DNA of 64,000 bases from Rhodovulum sp. ES.010. Lineage in GTDB: Bacteria; Pseudomonadota; Alphaproteobacteria; Rhodobacterales; Rhodobacteraceae. Of this stretch, positions 49,209-64,000 are shown one piece after another; position 1 is the stretch's first letter; each line of letters starts with the position of its first letter. The notes below the pieces were generated by a model. The model made no database searches. It saw only the letters and a program-made list of their open reading frames with translations, and had not been told where the DNA came from. The translations under genes were made by a program, and so were the position numbers. The stretch lies in contig NZ_FSRS01000001.1 of the NCBI RefSeq assembly GCF_900142935.1, positions 1,436,001-1,500,000 of the forward strand, read 5' to 3'.

Positions 49209-50744
49209 ATGAAACAGGAGCGCCGACGGGGACGACGGACCAGGGCGGACCGCGGCGGCGCGGGCATTCCGCAGTTGCCCTGGACTCAGGTCGAGAACCC
49301 CTACGCGTTCACGGAGCTGGCCAACGCGGAGCAGGTCAAGGCGATCCACCGGACCTCGCTGCGCATCCTCTCCGAACTCGGGATCCGGGTGATGGGCGAG
49401 CGGGTGCTGGCGCTTTTCGAGGCGGCCGGGGCCCTGGTCGACCGCGAGACGCGCCTTGTGCGGCTGGACGGCGAGTTGGTGGAACAGGCGCTCGCGACCG
49501 CGCCTGGGCGGTTCCCGCTGACCCCGCGCAACCTGGACCGGCGGCTGGAGATCGGCGGCCGCGCGCTGGCCTTCGGGCTGGTGGCCGGGCCGCCCAACGT
49601 GCATGACTGCGTGAACGGGCGGCGCACCGGCAACCTGAGCGATTATCGCGACTTCATCCGGCTCGCGCAGCATTTCAACGCGATCCACGTGATCGGGAAT
49701 CAGGTGACGGCACCGCAGGAGTTGCCCGTCAACAGCCGCCACCTCGACACCTATCTCGCCAATCTCACGCTGAGCGACCGGGCGTTCCACTGCACCGCGA
49801 TCGGGCGCGGCCGGGCGTTGGACGGCATCCGGATGACCGCGATCGCGCGGGGGACGACGCTGGACCAGATGGCCAGGGACCCGGGCGTGATCACCATCAT
49901 CTCGGTCAACTCCCCCCGGCTCTTCGATGCCGAGATGGGCGAGGGGCTGATCGCGATGGCCGAGCACGGCCAGCCGGTGGCGATCACGCCCTTCACGCTG
50001 ATGGGGGCGATGACGCCGGTGACGCTGGCCGCCGCACTCGCGCAGCAGAACGCCGAGGCGCTGTTCGGGGTGGTGCTGACGCAACTGGTGCGGCCCGGGG
50101 CGCCGGTGATGTATGGCGCCTTCACCTCGAACGTGGACATGCGCTCGGGCGCGCCGGCCTTCGGCACACCGGAGAACACCAGGGCCAACATGATCGCGGG
50201 ACAGCTGGCGCGGCGTTACGGGCTGCCCTACCGGACCTCGAACGCCAATGCGTCGAACGTGGTGGATTTGCAGGCCGCCTACGAGACCACGATGGCGACC
50301 TGGGGCGCGGTGATGGGGGGCGGGAACCTGGTCTATCACGCGGCGGGCTGGCTGGAGGGCGGGCTGACGGCGTCTTTCGAGAAGCTGATCCTCGACGTCG
50401 AGATCCTGCAGAACATGATCGAGATGCTGCGCCCGCTGGACGTGTCGGAGGCGGCGCTGGGCTTCGACGCGGTGGCCGAGGTCGGCGCGGGCGGGCACTT
50501 CTTCGGCGCGGCCCACACGATGGACCGCTACGAGACCGCGTTCTACCGCCCGATGCTGTCGGACTGGACGAATTACGGCGCCTGGGAAGCCGCGGGGGCG
50601 AAAGACGCGCTGCCCCGCGCCACGGCGTTGTGGCAACTGGCGCTGAAGGAGTACGAGGAACCGGCGATGGACGAGGGCATCCGAGAGGAACTGGAGGCCT
50701 ATGTGGCAGCCCGCAAGAAGGAGATCGGCGATGGCGAACCCTGA
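49209..50744 (+). CDS. MttB-family (trimethylamine methyltransferase-like) protein, non-pyrrolysine
   Basis: A 511-residue member of the MttB superfamily, which moves methyl groups from quaternary or tertiary amines to a corrinoid. Family features include the start with LHRTSLRIL-like region (AIHRTSLRILSELGIRV), AGPPNVHD, GAFTSNVDMRSGAPAFGTPE and TSNANASNVVDLQAAYE. There is no in-frame TAG for pyrrolysine, so it belongs with the glycine-betaine-type group. No cognate corrinoid protein gene is in the window. It overlaps the next gene by 14 bases. Substrate unknown; a methylated amine is likely given the partner. Confidence 0.85.
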   Translation: MKQERRRGRRTRADRGGAGIPQLPWTQVENPYAFTELANAEQVKAIHRTSLRILSELGIRVMGERVLALFEAAGALVDRETRLVRLDGELVEQALATAPGRFPLTPRNLDRRLEIGGRALAFGLVAGPPNVHDCVNGRRTGNLSDYRDFIRLAQHFNAIHVIGNQVTAPQELPVNSRHLDTYLANLTLSDRAFHCTAIGRGRALDGIRMTAIARGTTLDQMARDPGVITIISVNSPRLFDAEMGEGLIAMAEHGQPVAITPFTLMGAMTPVTLAAALAQQNAEALFGVVLTQLVRPGAPVMYGAFTSNVDMRSGAPAFGTPENTRANMIAGQLARRYGLPYRTSNANASNVVDLQAAYETTMATWGAVMGGGNLVYHAAGWLEGGLTASFEKLILDVEILQNMIEMLRPLDVSEAALGFDAVAEVGAGGHFFGAAHTMDRYETAFYRPMLSDWTNYGAWEAAGAKDALPRATALWQLALKEYEEPAMDEGIREELEAYVAARKKEIGDGEP

Positions 50745-53187
50745 GCGCCCCCTGCCCGCCCATGCCCCCGCCGTGGTGATCGGCGGCGGCGTGGTCGGCT
50801 GCTCGATCCTCTATCACCTGGCGAAGATGGGCTGGACCGACGCGGTGCTGCTTGAACGCTCGGAACTGACCAGCGGCTCCACATGGCACGCGGCGGCGAA
50901 CATCCACGGGCTGCACGACAGCACCAACATCTCGCGGTTGCAGCATTACACGATGGCACTCTACCGCGAGCTGGAGGCGGAAACCGGACAGGGCTGCGGG
51001 GTGTTCCAGCCCGGATCGCTCTACCTCGCGCAGACCGAGGACCGGGCGCACCAGTTGCGGCTGATGGCGGCGAAGGCGCGGCGCTACGGCATGGCGTTCC
51101 ACGAGGTGACGCGCGACGAGGCCGAGCGGCTGCACCCGCTGGTCGATTTCGAGCGCGTCCGGCTGATCATGTTCGAGCCCGATGGCGGCAATGTTGACCC
51201 GTCGGGCGTGACCAATGCCTATGCCGTGGGCGCGCGTCAGCGGGGCGCGCAGATTCACCGGTTCACGGCCGTGACGGCCACCGAGCCGCAGCCGGACGGC
51301 TCGTGGATCGTCCGCACGCAGCGCGGCGACATCCGCACCGATTGGGTGGTGAACGCCGCGGGGCTCTGGGCCCGCGAGGTGGCCGCGATGGCGGGGATCG
51401 ACCTGCCGCTGATCCCAACCGAGCACCAGTATTTCGTGACCGAAACGATCCCCGAGATCGCCGCCATGGACCGCCGCCTGCCCTCCGTCGCCGACCGGGA
51501 CGGCGAGTACTACCTGCGGCAGGAGGGCCAGGGGCTGCTGGTCGGCGCCTATGAGAGGGACGTTCGGTTCTGGGCCGAGGACGGGACGCCGCCCGATTTC
51601 GGCCACGAACTCTTCCACGACGACCTCGGCCGGATCGAGGAAAACGTGCTGCGCGCCATCGACCGGGTTCCGGCGGTGGGCCGGGCGGGCATCAAGCGGG
51701 TGATCAACGGCCCGATGATCTGGTCGCCCGACAGCGCCGCGCTGATGGGGCCGGTGCCCGAACGGCCCGGCTATTTCTGCTGTTGCGGGATCATCCCCGG
51801 CTTTTCGCAATCGGGGGGCCTTGGCCGTCTGGCGGCGGAATGGATGGTCGAGGGCGAACCCTCGATGGACATGTTCGGCTGGGACCTCGCGCGGTTCGGA
51901 CCCTGGGCGGACCGCGCCTTTACAAGGGCGCGGGTGGCCGACCAGTACGCGCACCGGTTCAAGATCCACTTCCCGGGAGAGGAACGCGCGGCGGGCCGGC
52001 CGGCGCGGAGGCGGCCGGCCTATGACATGCAGCGCGACATGGGCGCGGTCTTCGGGCTGAACGCGGGCTGGGAGCATCCGCTCTATTTCGATGCCGATGT
52101 GCCCGACAGCGCGGGTTTCGCCCGCCAGCCCTGGTTCGAAAGCGTGGGCCGCGAGGCGCGGATGCTGCGGGGCCGGGCGGGGATCATCGACATCTCGAAT
52201 TTCGCCAAGCTCCGGGTCGCGGGGCCGGGGGCGGAGGACTGGCTGAACCGCGTCTTCGCGGGCCGGATACCGCGGGCGGTGGGCCGGTCGTGCCTGACGC
52301 CGCTCATCGGCCGGCGCGGCGGCGTGACGGGGGATTTCACCGTGACGCGGCTGGGACCTGAAGAGTTCTGGGTGATCGGCTCTGGGATCGCCGAGCGGTT
52401 TCATCGCCGCCTCTTCGCGGAGATTCCCCTGCCCGCGGGCACGACTTGCGAAAGCCTGACCGACACGGTCGCGGGCTTCAACGTCGCCGGGCCGCGGGCG
52501 CGCGACTTGCTGGCCGGGCTAGCGGAGGCGAATCTGTCGGATGCGGGTTTTCCCTTCTTCCGCTCGGCCCGCATCCGCGTCGCGGGTGTGGAGTGCCTGG
52601 CGCTTCGTGTCTCCTTCACCGGCGATCTCGGCTGGGAGCTGCATTGCGCGGCCGAAGACCAGCCCGCGCTTTACGCAGCGCTGATCGAGGCCGGGCGGGC
52701 GCTGGGCGCGGGACCGGTGGGCAGCCGGGCGCTGATGTCGCTGCGCCTGGAAAAGGGCTACGGCTCCTGGGGGCGGGATTACTCGCCCGAATACTGGCCG
52801 CAGGAATCGGGGCTGGCCGGGCTGATCCGGCCCGAGGGCGCGTTTCTCAACCGCGCGGCATGGGAGGCGATCGCCGACAGGCCGCCGCGCGAGGTGATGA
52901 CGATGCTGGAAGTCGAGGCGGAGGGCGCCGATGCGGCCGGGGGCGAGCCGGTGTTCCTGCCCGACGGCACGCCCGCGGGGCAGGTCAGTTCGGGCGGCTA
53001 CGGATTCGCGGTGGAGGCCTCGCTCGCCATCGCGTATCTGAAGCCCGGATTGGCCGGGCCGGGCGACCGCGTGGATGTCGCGATTCTCGGCCGGCCGCAC
53101 AGCGCCCGCGTCCTTGCCCGGCCGCCCTTCGACCCCGAGGGGCTGCGACTGAGGGGGCCGGCCCCACAGGAGGAACCCGCCGAGTGA
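50731..53187 (+). CDS. Dimethylglycine/sarcosine dehydrogenase-like flavoprotein with folate domain
   Basis: An 818-residue protein with an N-terminal FAD domain (VVIGGGVVGCSILYHLAKMG, then LTSGSTWHAAA, where the His is the position used for covalent FAD in dimethylglycine dehydrogenase), a middle FAO_M region, and a C-terminal GcvT-like tetrahydrofolate domain (RAGIIDISNFAKLRVAG, FTGDLGWELH, MSLRLEKGYGSWGRD). It oxidatively demethylates an N-methyl amine, passing formaldehyde to folate. ATG 50731 has AAGGAG 7 bases upstream. Exact amine unknown. Confidence 0.9.
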   Translation: MANPERPLPAHAPAVVIGGGVVGCSILYHLAKMGWTDAVLLERSELTSGSTWHAAANIHGLHDSTNISRLQHYTMALYRELEAETGQGCGVFQPGSLYLAQTEDRAHQLRLMAAKARRYGMAFHEVTRDEAERLHPLVDFERVRLIMFEPDGGNVDPSGVTNAYAVGARQRGAQIHRFTAVTATEPQPDGSWIVRTQRGDIRTDWVVNAAGLWAREVAAMAGIDLPLIPTEHQYFVTETIPEIAAMDRRLPSVADRDGEYYLRQEGQGLLVGAYERDVRFWAEDGTPPDFGHELFHDDLGRIEENVLRAIDRVPAVGRAGIKRVINGPMIWSPDSAALMGPVPERPGYFCCCGIIPGFSQSGGLGRLAAEWMVEGEPSMDMFGWDLARFGPWADRAFTRARVADQYAHRFKIHFPGEERAAGRPARRRPAYDMQRDMGAVFGLNAGWEHPLYFDADVPDSAGFARQPWFESVGREARMLRGRAGIIDISNFAKLRVAGPGAEDWLNRVFAGRIPRAVGRSCLTPLIGRRGGVTGDFTVTRLGPEEFWVIGSGIAERFHRRLFAEIPLPAGTTCESLTDTVAGFNVAGPRARDLLAGLAEANLSDAGFPFFRSARIRVAGVECLALRVSFTGDLGWELHCAAEDQPALYAALIEAGRALGAGPVGSRALMSLRLEKGYGSWGRDYSPEYWPQESGLAGLIRPEGAFLNRAAWEAIADRPPREVMTMLEVEAEGADAAGGEPVFLPDGTPAGQVSSGGYGFAVEASLAIAYLKPGLAGPGDRVDVAILGRPHSARVLARPPFDPEGLRLRGPAPQEEPAE

Positions 53188-54437
53188 TCGCCGAAACCCC
53201 CGGGCTGATGGAGGAGGTCCGCGACCGCTTCGCCCATGTCGACGCCTGCCCGTTCGAGGGCCCCCGCATCTTCTTCGAGAACGCGGGCGGCGCGCTGCAC
53301 CTGAAATCCGTGGTCGAGACGTCGGCCTTCCATGCCGCGATCCCGGACAATCCCGGTCGGGCCAACGCAGCGGGGCGGCGGCTGCAGCAGATCATAGAGG
53401 CCGGCAAGGCGGACATGCGGCTCTTCTTCAACGCGCCGGGCGGGCAGGTCATGGTGGGCGAGAGCGGCACGGAGCTTCTGTTCCGGCTGGTCCGCACCGC
53501 GGCGCTTGGCGCGGCGGAGGGCGGCGCGATGATCGGCTCGACGCTGGAACATCCCGCGACGGCCAGCGCCATGGCGCGCTGGGCGGGCGTGACCGGGCGC
53601 GAGCTGATCCGCGTGCCCCATGACGACGCCACGGGCAGCGTGACCGCCGACGTCTATCGCGCCTACCTGACCCCCGATATCCGGGTCGCGACCATTTTGC
53701 ACACCTCGCCCGTCACCGGCATGGCCTCGGACGTGGCCGCCATCGCCGGGGCGATCCGCGCGGTCGCGCCCGAGGCCTTCATCGTGGTGGACGGCATCCA
53801 GCACGCAAGCCACGGGGCGGTGGATGTCGCGGGGCTCGGAGTCGACGGCTACGCGGTCTCGCCCTACAAGATGTTCTCGCGCCACGGCTATGGCGTCGGC
53901 TGGGCGTCCGACCGGCTGACCGCCTGCGCCAAGGACCAGTTGGCCGGCGGACCGGAGGACAATTGGGAACTCGGCACGCGGGACGCGGGCGCCTATGCGA
54001 CCTTTTCCGACGTGGTGGCCTATCTCGACTGGCTGGGCGGGCGGTGCGGCGGCGGCGCCAACCGGCGCCAGCGGCTGGAGGAGGCGGGGCGCGCCATCGC
54101 GGCGCAGGAACACGCGCTAATGCGCGCGGCGATCGGGGGCACGGGCAACCTGCCGGGGCTGGGCGCGATGGCGGGCGTGACGCTGATCGGCGGGGACCGG
54201 ATCGAGGGGCGCGAGGGCGTGGTTTCGTTCCGGCTGGCGGGCTGGGACTCGGCCGACCTCGTGGAGCATCTGCGGCAGAACGGGATCCGCGTCCATACCC
54301 GCAAGGCCGACCACTATTCGGGCAACGTGCTGCGGCCCCTGGGGATGGCGGATTGCGTGCGCCTGTCACCCTCGCATTACAACAACGAAAACGAGATCGC
54401 GCGGTTCCTGTCGGTGATGCAGGCGCTGGCGGCCTGA
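53184..54437 (+). CDS. Class V PLP-dependent aminotransferase/desulfurase-like enzyme
   Basis: A 417-residue fold-type I PLP enzyme. Visible are IFFENAGGALH, ESGTELLFRLVR, TILHTSPVTGMASDV, VDGIQHASHGAVDVAGLGVDGYAVSPYKMFS with the PLP lysine in SPYKMF, and a C-terminal RPLGMADCVRLSPSHYN. It belongs to the NifS/CsdA-like class V group but lacks an obvious cysteine-desulfurase active Cys loop. The GTG start at 53184 overlaps the previous stop by four bases and has AGGAGG upstream. Probably acts on an amino compound released by the two preceding enzymes. Confidence 0.82.
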   Translation: MIAETPGLMEEVRDRFAHVDACPFEGPRIFFENAGGALHLKSVVETSAFHAAIPDNPGRANAAGRRLQQIIEAGKADMRLFFNAPGGQVMVGESGTELLFRLVRTAALGAAEGGAMIGSTLEHPATASAMARWAGVTGRELIRVPHDDATGSVTADVYRAYLTPDIRVATILHTSPVTGMASDVAAIAGAIRAVAPEAFIVVDGIQHASHGAVDVAGLGVDGYAVSPYKMFSRHGYGVGWASDRLTACAKDQLAGGPEDNWELGTRDAGAYATFSDVVAYLDWLGGRCGGGANRRQRLEEAGRAIAAQEHALMRAAIGGTGNLPGLGAMAGVTLIGGDRIEGREGVVSFRLAGWDSADLVEHLRQNGIRVHTRKADHYSGNVLRPLGMADCVRLSPSHYNNENEIARFLSVMQALAA

Positions 54438-54450
54438 TCAGGCCAGCGCC
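54422..54450. terminator. Hairpin spanning the facing stop codons
   Basis: GGCCTGATCAGGCC (54431-54444) is a perfect palindrome containing the TGA of the + gene and the TCA (stop) of the - gene. Outer arms GGCGCT (54422-54427) and AGCGCC (54445-54450) extend it with a 3-base bulge. It has no T run, so it may be a bidirectional, Rho-assisted end. Confidence 0.6.
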
Positions 54451-55898
54451 TCGTCCATCAGGCGGCGGAACCGGGCGCGGCGGGGGGCGAGGATTTCGGC
54501 GAGGGCCGGGTCCGGTTCGACCAACCGGGGGAAGTCCGGCATCCGGGCGGCGAGGCTTTCGGCGCTGTCTTGCCCGGCGGCCACTCGGGCCAGCCGTGCG
54601 GCGCCGAGGCAGGCGGCCACGGGCGCGCGGTCCGACAACCCCGCGGGCTGGCCGAGAAGCGTCGCGATCATCCGCATCCAGAGCGCGCTGCGGGTGCCGC
54701 CGCCCACCAGCGCCAGCCGGTCGAAGGGCACGCCCGCGTCGCGCTGCGCCGCGACGCACTCGGCGATCAGGAAGGCCACGCCCTCCAGCACCGCCCAGCC
54801 CAGCGACGCCGCGTCCGCCCCGAGCCGGAGCCCCGCGATCCGGCCAGTCGCGTCGGGCCGGCCGTGCGGCGTGCGGATGCCGGTCAGCGCGGGCAGGAAG
54901 ACCGGCGCGTCGGGGGCGCGGCCCTCGGCCAGCAGGGTCTCGGCCGCGGCGGCGAGATCGGCGGCACAGGTCCCGGTCAGCCGCGCCGCCCAGTCGAGCG
55001 AGGCGGTCGCGGCCATCACCACCCCCATCGACAGTAAGGCGCCCGGCGCGGCATGGGCGCTGGTCAGGACGGCGCAGTGCGGCGCGGGGTGGAACGCCCC
55101 GTCTACGATGCAGGCCACGCCCGAGGTGCCGACGGTCACCACCGCGTCGCCCGGCGCGCCAGCGCCGACGCCCAGCGTCGCGGCCATGTTGTCGCCCGCC
55201 CCGGCGGCGACCGGGACGGCGGGGGGAAGGCCCCAGCGGCGGGCGAGTTCGGTGCGTACCTGCCCCGCCGGGCCCCAAGTCTGAACGATGGGCGGCAGCC
55301 AGTCGATGCGCCAGCCGACCGCCTCGCAGAGCCCTTCGTCCCAGCGGTTGGTGGGTATGTCGAAAAGCTGGGTGCCGCCGGCATCGGTGGGCTCGGAGGC
55401 GAGTTCCCCGGTCAGGGCAAGGCGGACGTAATCCTTGGTCAGCATCAGCATCCGGGCGCGGTCCAGCGCCTCTGGCTCGTGCTTGCGCATCCAGAGCAGT
55501 TTCGCGGCGTTGATCCCCGGATCGGGGGCGCAGTTGGTGCGGTGGCCGATATCGGGCACCAGCGCGGCGAGGTCCGCGCATTCCGCCAGCGCGCGCTGGT
55601 CGTTCCAGAGGATCGCGGGGCGCACCGGGCGCAGCGCCTCGTCCAGCAGCACCAGCCCCAGCATCTGCGCCGAAAGGCCGATCCCGGCCACGCCCGAGAG
55701 GTCGTGCGCAGCGGCCAGTTCGTCGAGGCAGGCAAGGACCGCGTCCACCCAGAGGTCGGGATGCTGCTCGCTCCAGCCCGGATGGGGGACCGAGACGGGG
55801 ATCGGACGGTTGGCCTCGGCGAGAACGTCCAGCCGCTCGCCGACCAGCGCCGCCTTGACACTCGAGGTGCCGATGTCGATGCCGATCACCCGGCTCAT
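54438..55898 (-). CDS. FGGY-family carbohydrate kinase (xylulokinase-like)
   Basis: A 486-residue sugar kinase. N-terminal nucleotide motif VIGIDIGTSSVKAALV, substrate-side PHPGWSEQHPDLW and ILWNDQRA, FGGY signature region AGAGDNMAATLGVGA, and C-terminal VGGGTRSALWMRMIA. Similar to xylulokinase, but FGGY kinases act on many polyols and sugars, so substrate is open. ATG 55898 overlaps the SorC stop by four bases. It ends the - strand ABC operon and abuts the PLP-enzyme gene with no gap. Confidence 0.88.
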   Translation of the reverse strand: MSRVIGIDIGTSSVKAALVGERLDVLAEANRPIPVSVPHPGWSEQHPDLWVDAVLACLDELAAAHDLSGVAGIGLSAQMLGLVLLDEALRPVRPAILWNDQRALAECADLAALVPDIGHRTNCAPDPGINAAKLLWMRKHEPEALDRARMLMLTKDYVRLALTGELASEPTDAGGTQLFDIPTNRWDEGLCEAVGWRIDWLPPIVQTWGPAGQVRTELARRWGLPPAVPVAAGAGDNMAATLGVGAGAPGDAVVTVGTSGVACIVDGAFHPAPHCAVLTSAHAAPGALLSMGVVMAATASLDWAARLTGTCAADLAAAAETLLAEGRAPDAPVFLPALTGIRTPHGRPDATGRIAGLRLGADAASLGWAVLEGVAFLIAECVAAQRDAGVPFDRLALVGGGTRSALWMRMIATLLGQPAGLSDRAPVAACLGAARLARVAAGQDSAESLAARMPDFPRLVEPDPALAEILAPRRARFRRLMDEALA

Positions 55899-56863
55899 GG
55901 CGCCTCCAGGATGGCTCGCGCGGTGGCCTCGTCGGTCACGAAACTGTCGATATGGCCAAGGCGCAGAACGGCGCGCAGCACCGGTACCTTGTGGGCGCCG
56001 CCCGAGGCGAGGATGACGTTGGGGACGCGGGCCAGGCCGGCCAGCCCCACGCCGATCACGCGCTCGTTGACGGGATGATCCAGCGGGTGACCGTCGGCGT
56101 CGATCACCACGCCGAGGATATCGCCCACGGCGCCCAGCGCCCGCAATTCCGCCTGCGTCACATCCGCGGGCAGCGCGTCGCGCATCAGAAGCGAGCGGTC
56201 CGAGATGTCGCCCGCGGCGATCGCCAGCGCGTCGGCCGAGCGGATCTTTTCGAGGATCTCGACGAAGACGTCGAGCTGCATGATCGTGTCTCGGCTGGAC
56301 CGGCTGCCGGCATAGAGCGGCGCGGTGAAATAGCTGTGGCGCGCGTTGCACAGGTCCGCCAGCCGGGTGGTGATCTCGAAACTGTTGAGGTCCGAGCCGC
56401 GGGTCAGCCCGCCCATCACGGAAACGATTTCGAGGTCGGGGCGGTTCAGCGGCGCCATGAAGCGCGTGGCGAGGTTGAGCGTGTTGCCCCAGGACATGCC
56501 GAAAAGCCGCACCGCGGGGTCGGCCAGCGCCTCGGTCAAGAGGTTGCCCAGCGCCGCGCCCACGATGGTTTGCGTGTCGCCGGGGTCCGAGGCGGACGGC
56601 ACCACATAGGCCTTGGTCAGGTCGAAGCGGTCTATCAGGGCGGCCTCGACCTCGGCGCAGGCGGCATAGGCGGTGTTGAACGAGACGCGGACAAGGCCGG
56701 TGCGGCGGGCCTCGGCCAGGGCCCTGTTCACGCGCAGGCGGGTGACGCCCAGTTTCTCGGCTACCTCGCCCTGGGTCATCCCCTCGACGTGATAGGCCCA
56801 GGCGACGCGGGTGAGGAAGCGTTCCTCTTCGTTCACGCGGGGGGTCTTGGGCTCGGGGCGCAC
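55895..56863 (-). CDS. SorC/DeoR-type sugar-binding transcriptional regulator
   Basis: A 322-residue regulator of the SorC family. The N-terminal helix-turn-helix shows AWAYHVEGMTQGEVAEKLGVTRLRVNRAL; the C-terminal sugar-phosphate-binding domain (NagB-like fold) includes LFGMSWGNTL, SVMGGLTRGSDLN and ERVIGVGLAGLARVPNVILASGG. Such regulators respond to a phosphorylated sugar, often the kinase product. The start is GTG at 56863, overlapping the permease stop by one base; another GTG at 56836 is possible. It probably controls the palindrome at 60033-60058. Confidence 0.87.
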   Translation of the reverse strand: MRPEPKTPRVNEEERFLTRVAWAYHVEGMTQGEVAEKLGVTRLRVNRALAEARRTGLVRVSFNTAYAACAEVEAALIDRFDLTKAYVVPSASDPGDTQTIVGAALGNLLTEALADPAVRLFGMSWGNTLNLATRFMAPLNRPDLEIVSVMGGLTRGSDLNSFEITTRLADLCNARHSYFTAPLYAGSRSSRDTIMQLDVFVEILEKIRSADALAIAAGDISDRSLLMRDALPADVTQAELRALGAVGDILGVVIDADGHPLDHPVNERVIGVGLAGLARVPNVILASGGAHKVPVLRAVLRLGHIDSFVTDEATARAILEAP

Positions 56864-57696
56864 TATTTCACGGCGCCCATGGTCAACCCGCGAACCAGTT
56901 GTTTCGACGCGATCAGCGCGAAAATCAGCACCGGGATCACGATCAGCGTCGAGGTGGCCATGATCTTGCCGTAGGGCAGGTTGTAGCCCTCCATGAAGCT
57001 GACGGCCATGGCAGGCGCGGTCTTGGCGGTGTTTCGCGTGAGAACAATGGCATACATCAGCTCGTTCCACGAGAAGATAAACGAGAAGATGGCGCTGACG
57101 GCGACGCCGGGCATCGCCAGCGGCAGGCAGATCGAGCGGAAGATGCGCCAGTGGGACGCGCCTTCGAGGATGGCGGCCTCGTCGAGGTCATAGGGGATGG
57201 CGCGGAATTGGTCGGTGCAGATCCAGATCACGATGGGCAGGTTGAAGGTGAGGTAGATCAGGATCAGCACCAGGTGGGTGTCGAGAAGCCCGAGGTGGCG
57301 GACGATCAGGAAGAACGGCAGGGCGAGGACGATCGGCGAGACCATGCGGTTGGTGATGAACCAGAACCAGAGGTCCTTCTTGCCGCGGAACTCGAACCGG
57401 GCCAGCGCATAGGCGGCGGGCGCGCCCAGGCCCACGGCGAGGATGGTGGTCGAGACGGCGACGATCAGCGAGTTGATCAGCGTGCGCCCCACCCCGTCCT
57501 CGAACAGCACCTCGGTGTAGTTGCCGAACGTGGGGGAAAAAACCCAGGCGGGCGGTTCCTGCAGCGCAATGAGCTGGGTCTTCAGGCTTGTGGTGACCAT
57601 CCAGTAGAACGGAAAGACACAGAAGATCAGGATGAGGCCGAGAAGCGCCGCCTGAACGGCGAGCCCCCGCCCCTGCCCCGGCGCGCTCGCCGACAT
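56863..57696 (-). CDS. Carbohydrate ABC transporter permease, MalG type
   Basis: A 277-residue CUT1-type permease. It has six hydrophobic segments and the ATPase-contact EAA loop DLDEAAILEGASHWRIFRSICLPLAMPG (in part DEAAILEGASHWRIF). It starts MSASAPGQGRGLA directly after the stop of the other permease gene and overlaps the regulator by one base. The CUT1 class carries di- and oligosaccharides, glycerol phosphate and polyols. Confidence 0.93.
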   Translation of the reverse strand: MSASAPGQGRGLAVQAALLGLILIFCVFPFYWMVTTSLKTQLIALQEPPAWVFSPTFGNYTEVLFEDGVGRTLINSLIVAVSTTILAVGLGAPAAYALARFEFRGKKDLWFWFITNRMVSPIVLALPFFLIVRHLGLLDTHLVLILIYLTFNLPIVIWICTDQFRAIPYDLDEAAILEGASHWRIFRSICLPLAMPGVAVSAIFSFIFSWNELMYAIVLTRNTAKTAPAMAVSFMEGYNLPYGKIMATSTLIVIPVLIFALIASKQLVRGLTMGAVK

Positions 57697-58575
57697 CTAG
57701 CGCACCTCCTTGTAGAAGACGCGGATGTAGAGCTGGCTGAGGACGATGGTGATGACGAGCAGGATCACCGCCTGCGCGGAGGCCAGCCCCTGGTCGAAGG
57801 CGCGGAAGCCGACGCGCTGGATCAGGATCGAGATGAACTCGGTCGCGTTGCCGGGCCCGCCCCGGGTCATGGTGAAGACCATGTCGAAGAGCTTCAGCGT
57901 GTCGGCGGTGCGCAGGATCAGGACCGCGACGAGGCCGGGGATCAGGAAGGGAAGCTGGACGTAGCGCAGCACCTTCCACCAGCTCTTGGTTTCCAGCCGC
58001 GCGGCCTCCTCGATCTCACCGGGGACAGTGGTCAGGCCCGCCAGCAGGACCAGCGCCACGAAGGGGGTCCATTGCCAGACATCCCAGAACACGACCGCGA
58101 TGAAGGCATTGGTGGGATCGCCGATCCAGTTGATCGGCTCGACACCGAGAAAGCCCATGAGCTGGTTCACCACGCCGTACTTGATGTTGAACATGACCTG
58201 ACCGAGCAGGCCCACCACGGCATAGGTGGTCGCCATGGGCAGGACGAGGGCCAGCCGCGTCAGCGTCTTCAGGAACCCGATGCCGGGCTGGTGGAGAAGC
58301 AGTGCGATGCCCAGGCCGAAAGCGATCTGCAGGGGCAGCGCGATGCCCAACAGCAGGAAGGTCCGCCCCATCGCGTCCCAGAAGATCGGGTCGGTCAGCA
58401 CATGGGCGTAGTTTTCCAGCCCGATGAATTCGACCTGCCGGAGCTTGGTGAGGTTGAAGAAATGCAGCGAGGTCCAGACCGCGTAGATCAGGGGCCCGAT
58501 GCCGACCAGCGCGAGCGCCAGGATCGACGGGCCGATGAAGGAGAACAGCGTGCGTTTCGGGACGCGTGACGACAT
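57697..58575 (-). CDS. Carbohydrate ABC transporter permease, MalF/UgpA type
   Basis: A 292-residue permease with a cytoplasmic start, six membrane segments (for example FIGPSILALALVGIGPLIYAVW and VAVILILRTADTLKLFDMVFTM) and the EAA loop GEIEEAARLETKSWWKVLRYVQLPFLIPG (in part EEAARLETKSWWKV). Its stop at 57697-57699 directly abuts the second permease start. Pairs with the solute-binding protein 72 bases upstream in the same transcript. Confidence 0.93.
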   Translation of the reverse strand: MSSRVPKRTLFSFIGPSILALALVGIGPLIYAVWTSLHFFNLTKLRQVEFIGLENYAHVLTDPIFWDAMGRTFLLLGIALPLQIAFGLGIALLLHQPGIGFLKTLTRLALVLPMATTYAVVGLLGQVMFNIKYGVVNQLMGFLGVEPINWIGDPTNAFIAVVFWDVWQWTPFVALVLLAGLTTVPGEIEEAARLETKSWWKVLRYVQLPFLIPGLVAVLILRTADTLKLFDMVFTMTRGGPGNATEFISILIQRVGFRAFDQGLASAQAVILLVITIVLSQLYIRVFYKEVR

Positions 58576-58647
58576 GCGCGTGACCTCCCTGCCCCCGAGG
58601 ATGCGAAGGCCGGGGCACGGATCGCGCCCCGGCCCGGTGCCGGCCCG

Positions 58648-59985
58648 TTACTGGGCCAGCGGTTTGTCGCCGTCGTAATAGCCGGCCTGATCGAGCACAT
58701 CCTCCATGCGGGTGCCGATCTCCCGGGCGCCTTCCTCGGTGGTGACCTCGCCCAGCATCATCTTGGTGCCCCATTCCTGCACGATCTCGGTGATCTCGGG
58801 CCACTCGGCGAAGCGCGGGCGGAATTCCGGCACGCCGTCCTGCCAGCTTTCCACCAGCGCGGGCACGAAGTCGTACTCCTCGGCGATGCCGTCGATCTCG
58901 TAGACCGACTGGCGCGCGGGCACGCCGCCCTTGCGCAGGTATTCCTCGGCATTGGCCTTGGACGTGATCCACTGGATGAAGAGCCAGGCGGCGGCCTGTT
59001 CGTCCGCGTCGGCCTGGCTGGCCACGGCGAGGCTGAAGCCGCCGAGCGCGGGCTTGCGGCCCGCCGGCCCCATCGGTTCCGGCGCGATGCCGAGGCAATC
59101 GACGATCTGGCTGGTCTCGGGGTTCGTGAGGGTGGCGTAGAAGGCCGACCACTCGGTGATGAAGGCGACGTCGCCCTGGGCCAGCGCGTTCACGGTTTCG
59201 GCGTGGTCGTAGGAGACGATGCCCTCGGGCATGAACTGCATCAGGTCCTGGCGGAATTTCAGCCCGGTCTGGCTTTCCTCGCTCATCAGGTTCGACCGGA
59301 AATTCTCGTCGAGGAACGATCCGCCGAAGGGCCAGAGGAAGCGGGCGAAGCTGTCGGCCGACTGGGTCTCGTTGCGCTTGGACTGGAGCGCGTAGGCATA
59401 TTGGCCGTCGCCGGTCAGCGCCGGGCCGTACTCGTCCATCACCGCCTGCCAGGTCTCGGGCGGGCCGTCGAAGCCGGCCTCTTCCAGCATGCAGCTGTTG
59501 TAGAAGAGAAGGCCCGAATAGTTGTCGAAGGGCAGCCCGTAGACGGTGCCGTTCCAGCCGCCGAAGGCGTTCAGCACCAGCGGGAAGAAATCGTCGATAT
59601 CGAGATCGGGGTCGGCCAGTTCGGGATTCGAGGTGAATTCCTCGATCGGCACGATCCACTCGTTCTCGGCGAAATTGCCGATCCAGACGAGGTCGATCAG
59701 CGCGATGTCGAGGTCACCGCCGGCCACGAAATCGCGCACCTGTTCGCCCAGCGCGTTCTCGTAGGGGAGTTTCGTGATGTTGATCTCGATGCCGGTCCGC
59801 TCGGTGAATTCCGGGATCATCTGCTCGGCCGCCTCGTAGCCGGGGCGCAGCAGGAACACGACATCGACGGTGGTGCCCGCATAGGGCTCGGCGGCCTCCT
59901 CCAGCGTCCACGCATCGGCCGCGTGTCCGCCTGCCGCCAGCGCAGCCGCGATGGCACCGGCGCTTGCCAGGGGTCTCGTTCTCAT
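58648..59985 (-). CDS. Carbohydrate ABC transporter solute-binding protein
   Basis: A 445-residue CUT1-type binding protein. Signal peptide MRTRPLASAGAIAAALAAGGHA; then PEFTERTGIEINITKLPYE, DIALIDLVWIGNFAENEW, YGLPFDNYSGLLFYN, GDVAFITEWSAFY and WLFIQWITSKANAEEYLRKGG, the usual two-lobe pattern. No lipobox, so a free periplasmic protein. First gene of the - strand arm, with GGAGGA just upstream of the start. Aromatic-rich ligand residues suit a polyol or sugar. Confidence 0.93.
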   Translation of the reverse strand: MRTRPLASAGAIAAALAAGGHAADAWTLEEAAEPYAGTTVDVVFLLRPGYEAAEQMIPEFTERTGIEINITKLPYENALGEQVRDFVAGGDLDIALIDLVWIGNFAENEWIVPIEEFTSNPELADPDLDIDDFFPLVLNAFGGWNGTVYGLPFDNYSGLLFYNSCMLEEAGFDGPPETWQAVMDEYGPALTGDGQYAYALQSKRNETQSADSFARFLWPFGGSFLDENFRSNLMSEESQTGLKFRQDLMQFMPEGIVSYDHAETVNALAQGDVAFITEWSAFYATLTNPETSQIVDCLGIAPEPMGPAGRKPALGGFSLAVASQADADEQAAAWLFIQWITSKANAEEYLRKGGVPARQSVYEIDGIAEEYDFVPALVESWQDGVPEFRPRFAEWPEITEIVQEWGTKMMLGEVTTEEGAREIGTRMEDVLDQAGYYDGDKPLAQ

Positions 59986-60024
59986 GGGTCCTCCTCCCGT
60001 TGTTCAGCCCTCTCGGTTGCGGGC

Positions 60025-60058
60025 TTGACAATCATTTGTATCAAGCCTCATACAAATG
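60025..60058. promoter_or_regulatory. Palindromic operator overlapping a sigma-70-like promoter
   Basis: CATTTGTAT (60033-60041) and ATACAAATG (60050-60058) are perfect 9-base arms around an 8-base centre, in a 117-base divergent gap. A TTGACA -35-like box at 60025-60030 precedes it, with a -10 region falling inside the right arm, so a bound repressor would block the + strand promoter. Likely site for the SorC regulator; that link is inferred. Confidence 0.75.
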
Positions 60059-60102
60059 TAAAGACGCTCGTGACGGGCGCGGGAGGACCGCGGAGGACGA
60101 AC

Positions 60103-61155
60103 TTGGCTCAGGTCACCCTGGAGGGGGTCAACAAGCATTACGGCGCCGATCAGGCGCTGTTCGACATCTCGCTCGACATCCCCGACGGGGCGTTCGCGGT
60201 GTTCGTGGGGCCCTCGGGCTGCGGGAAGTCGACGCTTCTGCGGTCCATCGCCGGGCTCGAAGGCATCAGCTCGGGACGCATCGGGATCGGCGGCGAGGAC
60301 GTCACCGCGGTGGCGCCCTCCGAGCGGGACGTCGCGATGGTGTTCCAGTCCTATGCGCTGTACCCGCACATGTCGGTCCGCGAGAACATGGATTTCGGCA
60401 TGAAGGTCAACGGGTTCAACGATGGCACCCGGAAGGAGCGCATCGCCGAGGCCGCGCGCATCCTGCAACTGACCAACTATCTCGACCGCAAGCCCGGACA
60501 GCTGTCGGGCGGCCAGCGGCAGCGGGTCGCCATCGGCCGGGCGATCGTGAAGCAGCCCAAAGTGTTCCTGTTCGACGAGCCGCTGTCGAATCTCGATGCC
60601 AAGCTAAGGATCCAGATGCGGGTGGAACTGGAAACCCTGCACCGCGAGCTCGAGGCGACGATGATCTACGTCACCCACGACCAGGTCGAGGCGATGACCA
60701 TGGCCGACGTGATCGTGGTGCTGAACGGCGGCCGGATCGAACAGGTGGGCGCGCCGATGGAGCTTTACCACAAGCCCGCGACCGAGTTCGTGGCCGGGTT
60801 CATCGGCGCGCCGAGCATGAACTTCCTGGACGTGTCGCCCGCCGCAGACGGGGTCGCCTATGGCGATGCGACGCTGAGCGCCCGGCCCATGTCGGCGCCG
60901 CCGGCCCGCGCCGGCATCCGGCCCGAACATGTCGGGCTGGCCGAACCCGGCGATGGGCAGATCGACGTCGCGGTGCGGGTCAAGGAGGCGCTGGGCGGCG
61001 AGAGCTATCTCTACACCACCACCGCGTCGGGCGACGAGATCGTGGTGCGCGCCGATGGCGAGACGCCGATCGCGCCGGGCGACCGGGCTGGCCTGACCTT
61101 GCCCGAGGCGCGGTTGCATTTCTTCGCGCGCGACGGCGCCCGGGTCGAGGCCTGA
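60103..61155 (+). CDS. Carbohydrate ABC transporter ATP-binding protein, MalK/UgpC type; TTG start
   Basis: A 350-residue ATPase with GPSGCGKSTLL (Walker A), FQSYALYPHMSV (Q-loop), LSGGQRQRVAIGRAI (signature), VFLFDEPLSNLDAKLR (Walker B) and a C-terminal regulatory OB domain (ARAGIRPEHVGLAEPGDG). It completes the importer but sits in the opposite arm from its permeases. The start is TTG at 60103, with GGAGGA 6 bases upstream; no ATG fits in frame. It precedes the dehydrogenase gene by one base. Confidence 0.93.
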   Translation: MAQVTLEGVNKHYGADQALFDISLDIPDGAFAVFVGPSGCGKSTLLRSIAGLEGISSGRIGIGGEDVTAVAPSERDVAMVFQSYALYPHMSVRENMDFGMKVNGFNDGTRKERIAEAARILQLTNYLDRKPGQLSGGQRQRVAIGRAIVKQPKVFLFDEPLSNLDAKLRIQMRVELETLHRELEATMIYVTHDQVEAMTMADVIVVLNGGRIEQVGAPMELYHKPATEFVAGFIGAPSMNFLDVSPAADGVAYGDATLSARPMSAPPARAGIRPEHVGLAEPGDGQIDVAVRVKEALGGESYLYTTTASGDEIVVRADGETPIAPGDRAGLTLPEARLHFFARDGARVEA

Positions 61156-61156
61156 C

Positions 61157-62503
61157 ATGGCAGACGGACGGCCCGCGCTCGACAGCCTTCTGGCCGATGC
61201 GGTCGCGCGCTCGCAGGCGGTCGCGGCGCTGGAGATCGGGCGCGGCGCGGTCGCCGCGACGGGGCGCATCTGGCGCGAGACTCTGGGCGAGCGGCCAGCG
61301 CTGATCCTGGCGGACGACAACACCTGGGGTGCGGCCGGGGCGCCGGTCGAGGCGGCGCTGACCGGGGCGGGCATCGCCCACCGGCGGCTGATCCTGCCCG
61401 GGCAGCCGCGGGTCAAGCCCACGCGCGAGATCGGCGACGATATCGCCGGGCGGATCGCGGAGGCGGAAACCCTGCTCGCGCTCGGTTCGGGCGTGCTGAA
61501 CGACCTGGCGAAATACGCCGCCTTCACCCGCGAGCGACCCTATCTCTGCGTCGCGACCGCGGCTTCGATGGACGGCTATACCAGCGGCGGCGCGCCGCTC
61601 TCGGACAACGGCTTCAAGATCACCATCCCCTGCCGCCCGCCGGTCGCGGTGATCGGCGATCTCGACGTGGTCGCGGCGGCACCGGCCGAGATGGCGGGCT
61701 GGGGCTATGGCGACCTGGCGGGCAAGGTGCCGGCAGGGGCCGACTGGATCCTGGCCGATGCGCTGGGGATCGAGCCGGTGGACGCGGTGGCCTGGCCGAT
61801 GGTGCAGGATCGGCTGCGCGACTGGCTGGCCGATCCGCAGGCCATCGCGGGCGGCGATTTCGACGCGATCTGGGGGCTGTTTGCGGGACTCGCGCTGGTG
61901 GGCCTTGCGATGGAGGCGCACGGGTCTTCGCGCCCCGCCTCGGGCGCCGACCACCAGATCGCCCATCTGTGGGAGATGGAGAACCTGACGCTGGCGGGAG
62001 AGCGGGTCAGCCACGGGGCCTGCGTGGCGCTGGGCTGCGTGGCGACGCTCAGTCTGTACGACTGGCTCATCGCGCGGGACCTGTCGACCCTCGATATCGA
62101 CGCCGCTCTGGCACGGGCACCCGAGGCAGAGGCAACCCGCGCGGCGATCGCCCGCGCCTTTCCCGACCGGGGGGTGGCCGAGCGGGCCGAGGCCGAGACG
62201 GCCGCCAAGGCGCTCGATCCCGCGGCCCACCGCGCGCGGCTGGAGCGGGTGCAAGAGGTCTGGCCCGCGCTGCGCACGCGGCTTTCGGCGCAGGTGATCC
62301 CCGCCGGCGAAATGGCGGCGATGCTGCGCCGGGCGGGCGCGCCCGCGGCCCCGGAGGAGATCGGGGTCACGCGCGCGAAACTGCGCGCCACGGTCGCCGC
62401 GGCGCGGTTCCTGCGGCGGCGCTACACGGTTCTCGACCTGCTGCACGAGACCGGGCTATTGTCGACGGCGCTGGACGACTGCTTCGGGAAGGAGCGCCGA
62501 TGA
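61157..62503 (+). CDS. sn-Glycerol-1-phosphate dehydrogenase (AraM/EgsA) family protein
   Basis: A 448-residue member of the iron-type alcohol dehydrogenase superfamily, AraM branch. It has [18 protein letters not shown] (NAD loop), [22 protein letters not shown]-like strand ([26 protein letters not shown]), and the metal site with [12 protein letters not shown]. AraM enzymes reduce DHAP to glycerol-1-phosphate or oxidise related polyol phosphates. Here, in an import and kinase cluster, oxidation of a phosphorylated polyol is more likely. It overlaps the SIS gene by four bases. Confidence 0.87.
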
Positions 62504-63063
62504 TCGACTACGCCGCCCTTGCGGCGCGCGCCGCCGGCGAGATCGAAGCCGCGGCCCGGCACGTCGATCCGGACGGGCTTGCCGCGCTGATCGACGAGAT
62601 CGCGGGGGCGCGGCGCATAGCACTGTACGGCGTGGGGCGCGAAGGACTGATGATGAAGGCGCTGGGGATGCGGCTTTATCATCTCGGGCTCGACGCGCAT
62701 ATCGTCGCCGACATGACGACACCGCCGCTGGGCGCGGGCGATCTGCTCCTGATCAGCGCCGGACCGGGCGACTTTTCCACTGTCCGGGCGCTGGTCGGCG
62801 TGGCGCAGGGCGCGGGCGCCCGGACGGCCTGTGTGACGGCGCAGCCGGACGGGCCGGTGCCCGCGCTCTGCGACACGGTTCTGACGATCCCCGCCCAGAC
62901 CATGGCCGACGACCGGGCCCCCGCGCCCGCCTCGGTGCTGCCGATGGGCTCGCTCTACGAGGGCGCACAATACGTGGCGTTCGAATGCCTCGTGCTGATG
63001 TTGCGCGACCGGCTGGGCGTGGGCACGGAGGCGATGCGGGCCAATCATACCAACCTGGAGTAG
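62500..63063 (+). CDS. SIS-domain protein, 6-phospho-3-hexuloisomerase-like
   Basis: A 187-residue single SIS domain: [57 protein letters not shown], read in parts as [17 protein letters not shown] and [12 protein letters not shown]. Size and layout match PHI (HxlB) enzymes, which isomerise a keto-hexulose phosphate. The late motif [15 protein letters not shown] is also PHI-like. No partner HxlA is seen in the window. ATG 62500 overlaps the previous stop. Confidence 0.82.
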
Positions 63064-63067
63064 GCCC

Positions 63068-63838
63068 ATGGCCGGCTGGTGCGACCGCTTTTCCATCTCG
63101 GAGCAGACCGCCCTTGTCACCGGCGCCTCCAAGGGCATCGGGGCAGAGGTCTGCGCCGTCTTCGCCGAGGCCGGCGCCGATATCGTGGCGGTGGCCCGTG
63201 ACCGGGACGGCCTTGCCGAGACCGCAGCGCGGGTCGCCGCCCCGGGCCGCGAGTGTCTGACCGTCACGGCGGACCTCGCCACGGTCGAGGGCTGCCGGAC
63301 GGCCGCGCGCGAGGCGCTGGAGGCGAAAGGCACCATCGACATCCTGGTGAACGCGGCGGGCATCGCCCGGACGGCCCCGGCGCTCGACCTCACGCCCGAG
63401 GACTGGGACGCCACCATGGCGATCAACCTGCGCGCGCCGTTCCTGATGGCGCAGGCGCTGGCCCCCCGCATGATCGCCCAGCGCCGGGGCAAGATCATCA
63501 TGATCTCGTCGCAGACCGGGGTCATCGCTCTGGACGACCACGCTGCCTATGCCAGTTCCAAGGGCGGCCTGAATTCTCTGACGAAATCGCTCTGCGCCGA
63601 ATGGGCGCGGTTCAACGTCCAGGTCAACGCGATCTGCCCGACAGTGGTTATGACGCCGATGGGCCGCGAGATCTGGGGGCCAGAGGAAAAGTCCGGCCCG
63701 TTCATTGCCGCCACGCCGCTGCGCCGGTTCGGCGAGCCGGTCGAGATCGCCGATGCCGCGCTCTACCTCGCCTCGCCGGCCTCGGACTTGGTGAACGGGC
63801 ACCTCCTGATGGCCGAGGGCGGGTTCACCAGTGTCTGA
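63068..63838 (+). CDS. Short-chain dehydrogenase/reductase
   Basis: A 256-residue classical SDR: cofactor loop TGASKGIGAEV (residues 19-29), NAAGIA, catalytic Ser in MISSQTGV, YxxxK in YASSKGGLNSL, and PTVVMTPM after the active site. It is close to gluconate-5-dehydrogenase and related sugar/polyol SDRs. It follows the SIS gene by 4 bases and overlaps the next gene by 8. Cofactor and substrate unknown. Confidence 0.9.
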   Translation: MAGWCDRFSISEQTALVTGASKGIGAEVCAVFAEAGADIVAVARDRDGLAETAARVAAPGRECLTVTADLATVEGCRTAAREALEAKGTIDILVNAAGIARTAPALDLTPEDWDATMAINLRAPFLMAQALAPRMIAQRRGKIIMISSQTGVIALDDHAAYASSKGGLNSLTKSLCAEWARFNVQVNAICPTVVMTPMGREIWGPEEKSGPFIAATPLRRFGEPVEIADAALYLASPASDLVNGHLLMAEGGFTSV

Positions 63839-64000
63839 CGCGCTCTGCCTCGACGTCGAGACGACCTTCGCCCGCTACGAGGCGCTGCGCAACCGGCTGC
63901 CCGCTGCTGGGTTCGACCTGGTGCCGCAGCAGGCGGCCACGCTGGAGGACGTGGCGGAGCGCTTTGAGGGCTTCGTGCTGGACGCCTTCGGCGTGCTGAA
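63831..64000 (+). CDS. HAD-family phosphatase, N-terminal part (cut by window edge)
   Basis: From GTG at 63831 the frame reads VSDALCLDVETTFARYEALR and then ERFEGFVLDAFGVL, where VLDAFGVL is HAD motif I (Asp nucleophile) of the NagD/PGP-like IIA type. Only 56 codons are visible. The start overlaps the SDR stop by 8 bases, so it belongs to the same transcript. It may dephosphorylate a sugar phosphate at the end of the pathway. Confidence 0.7.
   Translation, partial: MSDALCLDVETTFARYEALRNRLPAAGFDLVPQQAATLEDVAERFEGFVLDAFGVL

Follow-up and report, generated by a model that had tools for sequence, protein, structure and literature searches.

The last part (54438-64000) of a 64,000-nucleotide stretch of the Rhodovulum sp. 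ES.010 genome (contig NZ_FSRS01000001.1; the whole stretch analysed is called the window) carries what is very probably a polyol locus, arranged as two divergent arms around one common intergenic region of 117 bases. From the centre outwards, the left arm (minus strand) encodes the solute-binding protein of an ATP-binding cassette (ABC) importer, two permeases, a SorC-family regulator and an FGGY kinase (KIN1), while the right arm (plus strand) encodes the ABC ATPase, an AraM-type dehydrogenase, a SIS-domain protein resembling 6-phospho-3-hexuloisomerase (PHI), a short-chain dehydrogenase/reductase (SDR), a HAD protein and then a second FGGY kinase (KIN2). The importer genes are divided between the arms, with the ATPase on the right and the binding protein and permeases on the left, and neighbouring genes within an arm are spaced by -28 to 72 bases, which fits two operons. 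A preliminary description of this DNA had named the same families, divergent arms, single control region and split importer; open reading frames and family scans found every family in its claimed place, and the layout is confirmed. It had also pointed to missing 3' genes past base 64000, and the genome sequence beyond the window end indeed holds the end of the HAD gene and then KIN2, a xylulokinase gene outside the window then described; the genes past KIN2 look unrelated by eye.

Importer, regulator and the shared intergenic region

The solute-binding protein (58648..59985, minus) matches SBP_bac_8 and SBP_bac_1, and its best solved relative is 5iai (E 1.6e-43). Permease 1 (MalF/UgpA type; 57697..58575, minus) and permease 2 (MalG/UgpE type; 56863..57696, minus) both fall below NCBIfam cut-offs, and are 72-97% and 76-97% identical, respectively, to their counterparts in the syntenic loci defined below. 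The ATPase (UgpC/MalK type; 60103..61155, plus; start TTG, uncertain) is 64-87% identical in those loci, and its counterpart in a Ruegeria locus (L115) is annotated ugpC. The regulator (55895..56890, minus; start codon uncertain) matches PF04198 with 175 bits (cut-off 27), and for a possible N-terminal helix-turn-helix there are weak matches, all below their cut-offs.

Between the arms (feature 60025..60058) lie a TTGACA at 60025-60030 and a perfect 9-base inverted repeat, CATTTGTAT-N8-ATACAAATG, at 60033-60058. The 16-base core of this repeat, ATTTGTAT-N4-10-ATACAAAT, has a single location in the 3.83 Mb genome, and the backward-read control of the same pattern has none. We extracted 21 intergenic regions from related loci and tested 20 (that of L117 was left out, its 1244 bases containing the gene of a medium-chain dehydrogenase/reductase, MDR) with a pattern derived from the window's own sequence. 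Thirteen of the 20, the window's own included, hold a site with at most two mismatches and a spacer of always 8 bases, and all 13 belong to AraM loci; none of 2000 letter shuffles reached this level. The remaining seven regions (L011-L014, L115, L116 and L118) show 3-5 mismatches, a range that shuffles also reach (53/2000 at four or fewer), so conservation of the palindrome is limited to the 13 AraM-type regions. From its position, the SorC protein is the likely reader of this palindrome. In L104, an AraM locus without SorC and without the importer, the stretch separating AraM from KIN1 shows no such operator. A consensus scan for promoters and terminators was uninformative, with 0 promoter calls (0.7 expected in shuffles) and 2 terminator-like calls (4.0 expected).

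Upstream of KIN1, the plus strand at 49209-54437 appears by eye to encode trimethylamine-methyltransferase-like, dimethylglycine-dehydrogenase-like and class V aminotransferase genes; the last of these ends at the base adjoining the end of KIN1, and the aminotransferase stays beside KIN1 in Rhodovulum marinum.

Conservation of the locus and exchange of its dehydrogenase

We sampled 394 family genomes: AraM at 49% identity or higher is present in 13, the binding protein (E<=1e-120) in 16 and the pair in 12, against 0.5 expected under independence; the co-occurrence on which the preliminary description had made its reading depend is thereby borne out. The SIS protein (E<=1e-30) is found in 44 of these genomes, including 12 of the 13 with AraM and 15 of the 16 with the binding protein, the exception (G500) having a contig that stops at AraM. 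Beyond the family the locus is uncommon: a sample of 385 genomes from the class gave, as the nearest other AraM proteins, those of G186 (49%) and G066 (47%), and both lie away from this importer.

We fetched 23 loci with an AraM of at least 47% identity and took the 17 that also hold the binding protein as the syntenic set, all of them found by AraM searches, so that AraM is present there by construction. SorC is seen in 16, the SDR in 15, KIN1 and the SIS protein in 13 each, the HAD protein in nine and KIN2 in two, with contig ends cutting L109 and L112 inside the cluster and L016 inside KIN1. In all 17, AraM is the gene that immediately follows that of the importer ATPase. The full 11-gene set was found only here and in R. 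marinum (L010), and most of the gene order is shared among other genera of the family, Rhodovulum and Pelagibius. The polyol-type catabolic locus proposed earlier, comprising an importer, a kinase, a dehydrogenase and a SIS protein, is supported. In L104, which lacks the importer, SorC and the SDR, a ribokinase-like gene (below cut-off) comes after the AraM, SIS and HAD genes, with KIN1 divergent.

The AraM protein itself (61157..62503, plus) is a member of the glycerol-1-phosphate dehydrogenase superfamily (Fe-ADH_2, PF13685). It scores 144.6 bits against NF002022 (sn-glycerol-1-phosphate dehydrogenase), far under the cut-off of 413, and retains the family's Asp and His motifs, which we take to be metal ligands (aligned with 9h4x and 5fb3; the motifs are present across the clade). 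Evolutionarily, the AraM proteins of the syntenic loci form one group with those of L015 and L104 (99/90 support), with L017 beside it; the group has 21 rows, two of them duplicates (L123 and L138), and the root was placed for drawing only. The label-change count of this tree was not used, given its duplicate rows and the cut loci labelled as lacking PHI.

Where AraM is missing behind this importer, another dehydrogenase stands in for it. None of the 17 AraM loci with the importer contains an MDR alcohol dehydrogenase, whereas the eight importer loci first examined (L115-L119, L128, L132 and L133) all contain an MDR enzyme and no AraM. Queries with the binding protein or with the SIS protein led to these MDR loci, and 7 of 14 plasmid records with a binding protein of at least 55% were examined. 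Four of the 394 family genomes have the binding protein without an AraM match (L167-L170), and all four carry an MDR gene; altogether, an MDR alcohol dehydrogenase replaces AraM in 12 of the 12 fetched AraM-less loci of this importer. The best solved relatives of the Skermanella MDR protein are sorbitol dehydrogenase and ketose reductase, and an NCBIfam scan of four MDR proteins gave no match over a cut-off. Beside the importer, the Ruegeria locus L115 encodes both a xylulokinase (521.7 bits) and a pentulose kinase (654.4 bits), each over its cut-off, and L119 and L128 encode one ribulokinase each over the NF003154 cut-off; FGGY kinases of other MDR loci lie below cut-offs or were recognised by similarity alone.

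As for the substrate, 5iai appears among ribitol-containing structures in a passage of PMC8468352. Because 5iai holds ribitol and pentulose-type kinases adjoin the sister importers, a pentitol seems the likeliest substrate, a reading we moderately favour, with ribitol, the arabitols and xylitol not distinguishable from one another. By analogy the importer could possibly take up several polyols, since a single polyol transporter of Sinorhizobium meliloti can serve several, as passages of PMC10433430 describe.

Loci outside the syntenic set bear on the order of the steps. A class II aldolase gene lies near AraM in L017, L081, L083, L090 and L097 (nearest model L-fuculose-phosphate aldolase, below cut-off, for L017 and L090; by eye for the other three). 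Such class II aldolases split ketose 1-phosphates, which suggests that the AraM product in these five loci is a ketose 1-phosphate. Because an aldolase of this kind adjoins AraM there, we place the kinase before AraM, an order that we nonetheless regard as evenly poised. Two Rubrobacter plasmids (L022 and L023) carry two and one AraM genes, respectively, together with HAD-IIA, several FGGY kinases, a dihydroxyacetone kinase family protein and rpiB, possibly a separate polyol locus. In L015 (7630-9972), a long open reading frame that by eye resembles a GH31 glycosidase and adjoins an ABC importer precedes an AraM of 56% identity.

Residues of the SIS protein, the kinases and the HAD protein

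The SIS protein (62500..63063, plus) is the most interesting part of the locus. It scores 143.9 bits against the 6-phospho-3-hexuloisomerase model TIGR03127, below the cut-off of 160, and many members of its subfamily carry the name 6-phospho-3-hexuloisomerase in JGI entries. SIS domains are known as phosphosugar binders, and PHI/HxlB relatives (four solved proteins, as five chain sequences, and one HxlB encoded beside HxlA) carry a GRSG motif and an SGSGxT loop, of which the Ser of GRSG and the Ser, Ser and Thr of the loop are, we assume, the phosphate contacts. We aligned 164 SIS sequences, a set that includes the window's protein, one outlier of 34% identity and maybe a few trimmed duplicates, and that is biased to close relatives, 119 of the 164 coming from the best 120 of 6426 matches of one search. 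In this set the GRSG Ser is replaced by Glu in 163 and by Met in one; the first loop Ser is kept in only two and replaced in 162; Pro takes the place of the second in 163 and Val in one; and the Thr has given way to Phe, Leu, Ile or Val throughout the 164. The conserved Glu and the C-terminal His, presumably the catalytic residues of PHI, are unchanged in 164/164. A ribulose monophosphate role for the PHI-like protein was rejected, the genome having no 3-hexulose-6-phosphate synthase (HxlA) over the cut-off (best 21.7 bits against 200).

The genomic surroundings of SIS relatives are varied. The gene is present in six of the eight MDR loci first examined and lies between the binding-protein and permease genes in L128, L132 and L133. 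SIS loci were further fetched from 20 of the 44 SIS-bearing family genomes, and 16 of them lack this importer. In two (L180 and L184), the SIS gene sits within an operon for an RbsB-type importer together with a D-psicose-3-epimerase-like gene, whose product is 70-72% identical to a protein with D-psicose 3-epimerase as its nearest model (below cut-off); epimerases of this class act on free ketoses. In L175, L180 and L184 a LacI gene is divergent from RbsB-SIS-RbsA-RbsC operons (the L175 stretch ends early), and L180 also holds a PRK/uridine-kinase-type protein. In L171, L176, L177, L178, L181, L182, L183 and L185 the SIS relative adjoins an FGGY kinase gene, with a ribokinase-like gene in the stretch, L178 having an RbsD/FucU protein and L176 a BtpA family protein as well. 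The neighbours of the SIS relative in L173 are a gluconolactonase-like gene, a KDPG-type aldolase and a 2-keto-3-deoxygalactonokinase. Judged by its residues and the missing HxlA, with which the importer contexts (above all those of L180 and L184) agree in part, the SIS protein would, by a slight balance, work on free sugar. A wider proposal, which we think somewhat short of evenly likely, is that a large SIS subfamily without phosphate binding isomerises unphosphorylated ketoses behind importers and is here coupled to AraM as a polyol or polyol-phosphate dehydrogenase. Among the papers that our literature searches listed, none describes such a pathway.

The two kinases differ in one motif. 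KIN1 (54438..55898, minus) is of xylulokinase type, scoring 403.9 bits against TIGR01312 (cut-off 380.25), and has Leu (QML) in place of the His of solved xylulokinases (5vm1 and 2itm), a residue of the QMH motif that presumably contacts the substrate. QML is found in 13 of 13 distinct KIN1 sequences, the window's own included, so the KIN1 substrate is probably different from that of xylulokinase. KIN2, which follows the HAD gene after 9 bases (64743-66200 in extended coordinates; L009:11743-13200), reaches 526.7 bits against the same model and retains QMHG, features that clearly mark it as an ordinary xylulokinase.

The HAD-IIA protein begins at 63831 (plus), is cut by the window at 64000 and ends at 64733; it passes TIGR01460 by a narrow score (100.5 bits, cut-off 100.15) and falls under TIGR01459 (HAD-type hydrolase; 100.1 against 103.75). 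HAD phosphatases have two Asp in motif I (DxD), whereas motif I here is DAFGV, lacking the second Asp, and the pattern D-[ASG]-[FY]-G-V holds in 17 of 17 distinct HAD sequences of at least 45% identity (the window's own included). The family assigned in the preliminary description stands, and its call of a phosphatase is doubtful here. Canonical motif I occurs in HAD proteins beside AraM in Rubrobacter (L022 and L023), S. meliloti (L024) and one Shinella (L026). The unusual HAD seems functionally tied to AraM, because six further AraM loci of low similarity (L090, L095, L096, L098, L099 and L121) contain it too. Between the SIS and HAD genes, the SDR (63068..63838, plus) has GolD/DthD as its nearest NCBIfam model (NF005309, 244.1 bits, below the cut-off of 286) and 4egf, named L-xylulose reductase, as its best solved relative.

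Candidate routes and their meaning

Gene content, divergent layout, gene order, the palindrome and the replacement of AraM by an MDR enzyme in sister loci can all be read from the sequence; the locus is a real, conserved catabolic regulon, probably directed at a pentitol. We posit, as a tentative scheme that is appreciably less than evenly likely in its entirety, a probably SorC-controlled regulon for the uptake and breakdown of a sugar alcohol, most likely a pentitol, by the following route. The importer would bring the polyol into the cell, where KIN1 would phosphorylate a terminal hydroxyl and AraM, with NAD(P), would oxidise the neighbouring carbon to give a 2-ketose 1-phosphate, a step modelled on the glycerol 1-phosphate reaction of its relatives. 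The phosphate would then be taken off, perhaps by the HAD protein, the SIS protein would isomerise the free ketose, the SDR would convert ketose and polyol into each other, and phosphorylation by a pentulose kinase (KIN2 in this locus, different kinases in others) would yield the 5-phosphate for the pentose phosphate pathway.

Several observations weigh against this route. With the second motif I Asp missing, the HAD protein is a doubtful phosphatase, which would leave the dephosphorylation step without a good candidate, and the protein goes unseen in eight of the 17 syntenic loci (two of these cut there). KIN1 passes the cut-off of xylulokinase, a ketose-kinase family; it is absent at L105, where the best match elsewhere in the genome is 43%, and both KIN1 and the SIS gene are missing from the locus in two Pelagibius genomes of unstated completeness (L011 and L013) that still have AraM and the SDR there; in the rest of these genomes, KIN1 matches do not exceed 37% and those to the SIS protein are weak and partial. 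As to the substrate, 5iai is only a distant relative of the binding protein, and three of the 12 MDR loci (L116, L118 and L169) show no FGGY kinase. Finally, 28 of the 44 SIS-bearing genomes have neither this AraM nor this binding protein, and one SIS relative (L173, 9122-12081) lies in a sugar-acid context; the SIS protein is thus not confined to this locus and may act on something other than a pentulose. In addition, eight of the 16 loci without this importer combine the SIS gene with an FGGY kinase, so that some connection with phosphorylation persists.

Among the alternatives, a route in which the dehydrogenase acts first survives best, and we regard it as possible, if unlikely. AraM would oxidise the free polyol, as the MDR enzyme would elsewhere, the SIS protein would isomerise the free ketose and KIN1 would phosphorylate it, leaving the HAD protein as a side enzyme. 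The exchange of AraM and MDR for each other, the xylulokinase score of KIN1 and the joint absence of KIN1 and SIS in two genomes all favour this order, which moreover requires no phosphatase; what speaks against it is that AraM retains the motifs of the glycerol-1-phosphate dehydrogenase family and that AraM is found in other loci alongside both an FGGY kinase and a class II aldolase, the latter of the ketose 1-phosphate-splitting kind.

The preliminary description had instead proposed phosphorylation, oxidation, isomerisation of a keto phosphate by the PHI-like protein and then reduction or dephosphorylation by the HAD protein. Every enzyme family it needs is present, the SIS catalytic Glu and His are retained, and SIS genes are paired with FGGY kinases in eight other loci, but the phosphate contacts are replaced in nearly all of the 164 SIS sequences, which tells against keto-phosphate isomerisation, and the second Asp of HAD motif I is absent in 17/17, so that we hold this model to be improbable. 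A tetritol route is a poor prospect, too. KIN1 would make a tetritol phosphate, AraM erythrulose 1-phosphate, and a PHI-like carbonyl shift erythrulose 4-phosphate, the conversion of one erythrulose phosphate to the other being a step of the known erythritol and threitol routes. While the shift suits PHI chemistry, GolD/DthD is the nearest NCBIfam model of the SDR, and rpiB and dihydroxyacetone kinase genes also occur in the Rubrobacter AraM loci, the SIS protein has lost its phosphate contacts, sister loci carry pentulose-type kinases and the nearest solved binding protein is recorded with ribitol; we rate it as very improbable. Synthesis of sn-glycerol 1-phosphate for archaeal-type lipids, with no catabolic role, would recall the glycerol-1-phosphate dehydrogenase activity ascribed to Bacillus subtilis AraM in part of PMC13400652, but this ether-lipid role was rejected on gene context as almost certainly wrong, with AraM directly behind the ATPase gene throughout the syntenic set, a score far under the glycerol-1-phosphate dehydrogenase cut-off and an MDR dehydrogenase in AraM's place elsewhere.

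Compared with known systems, the proposed pentitol regulon resembles the MDR loci of Ruegeria THAF33, Paracoccus seriniphilus and Skermanella rosea, which share its importer family, SorC and SIS protein (and, in Ruegeria and Paracoccus, the SDR) but have MDR for AraM, other kinases or none, and annotation without a substrate. HxlB/PHI shares the SIS domain, catalytic Glu and C-terminal His with the SIS protein, and differs in the phosphate contacts, replaced here, and in HxlA, which has no match over the cut-off in this genome. The arabinose operon of B. subtilis has an FGGY kinase that we take to be AraB. That operon, araABDLMNPQ-abfA, likewise brings AraM together with a HAD protein, AraL, but it serves arabinose catabolism, its AraL is a working phosphatase, and the operon name, as given in the relevant passages of PMC3207120, includes no SIS protein. 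The smo polyol locus of S. meliloti (SmoEFGK, SmoS, MtlK) resembles the present one in its ABC importer and polyol dehydrogenases and in having a putative phosphatase and a putative carbohydrate kinase encoded next to it; unlike here, its regulator is of DeoR type, AraM and SIS proteins go unnamed in the passages on the locus, and its dehydrogenase-first route is backed by genetics and assays (PMC10433430). A search of open-licence literature found no substrate assignment for the gene set described here.

If the proposed reading is true, the SIS subfamily, with its catalytic residues kept and its phosphate contacts replaced, would add an activity new to a very common fold. For AraM outside Bacillus, the locus further suggests a part in polyol catabolism that can be tested, and one importer with two unrelated dehydrogenase families behind it amounts to a natural exchange experiment.

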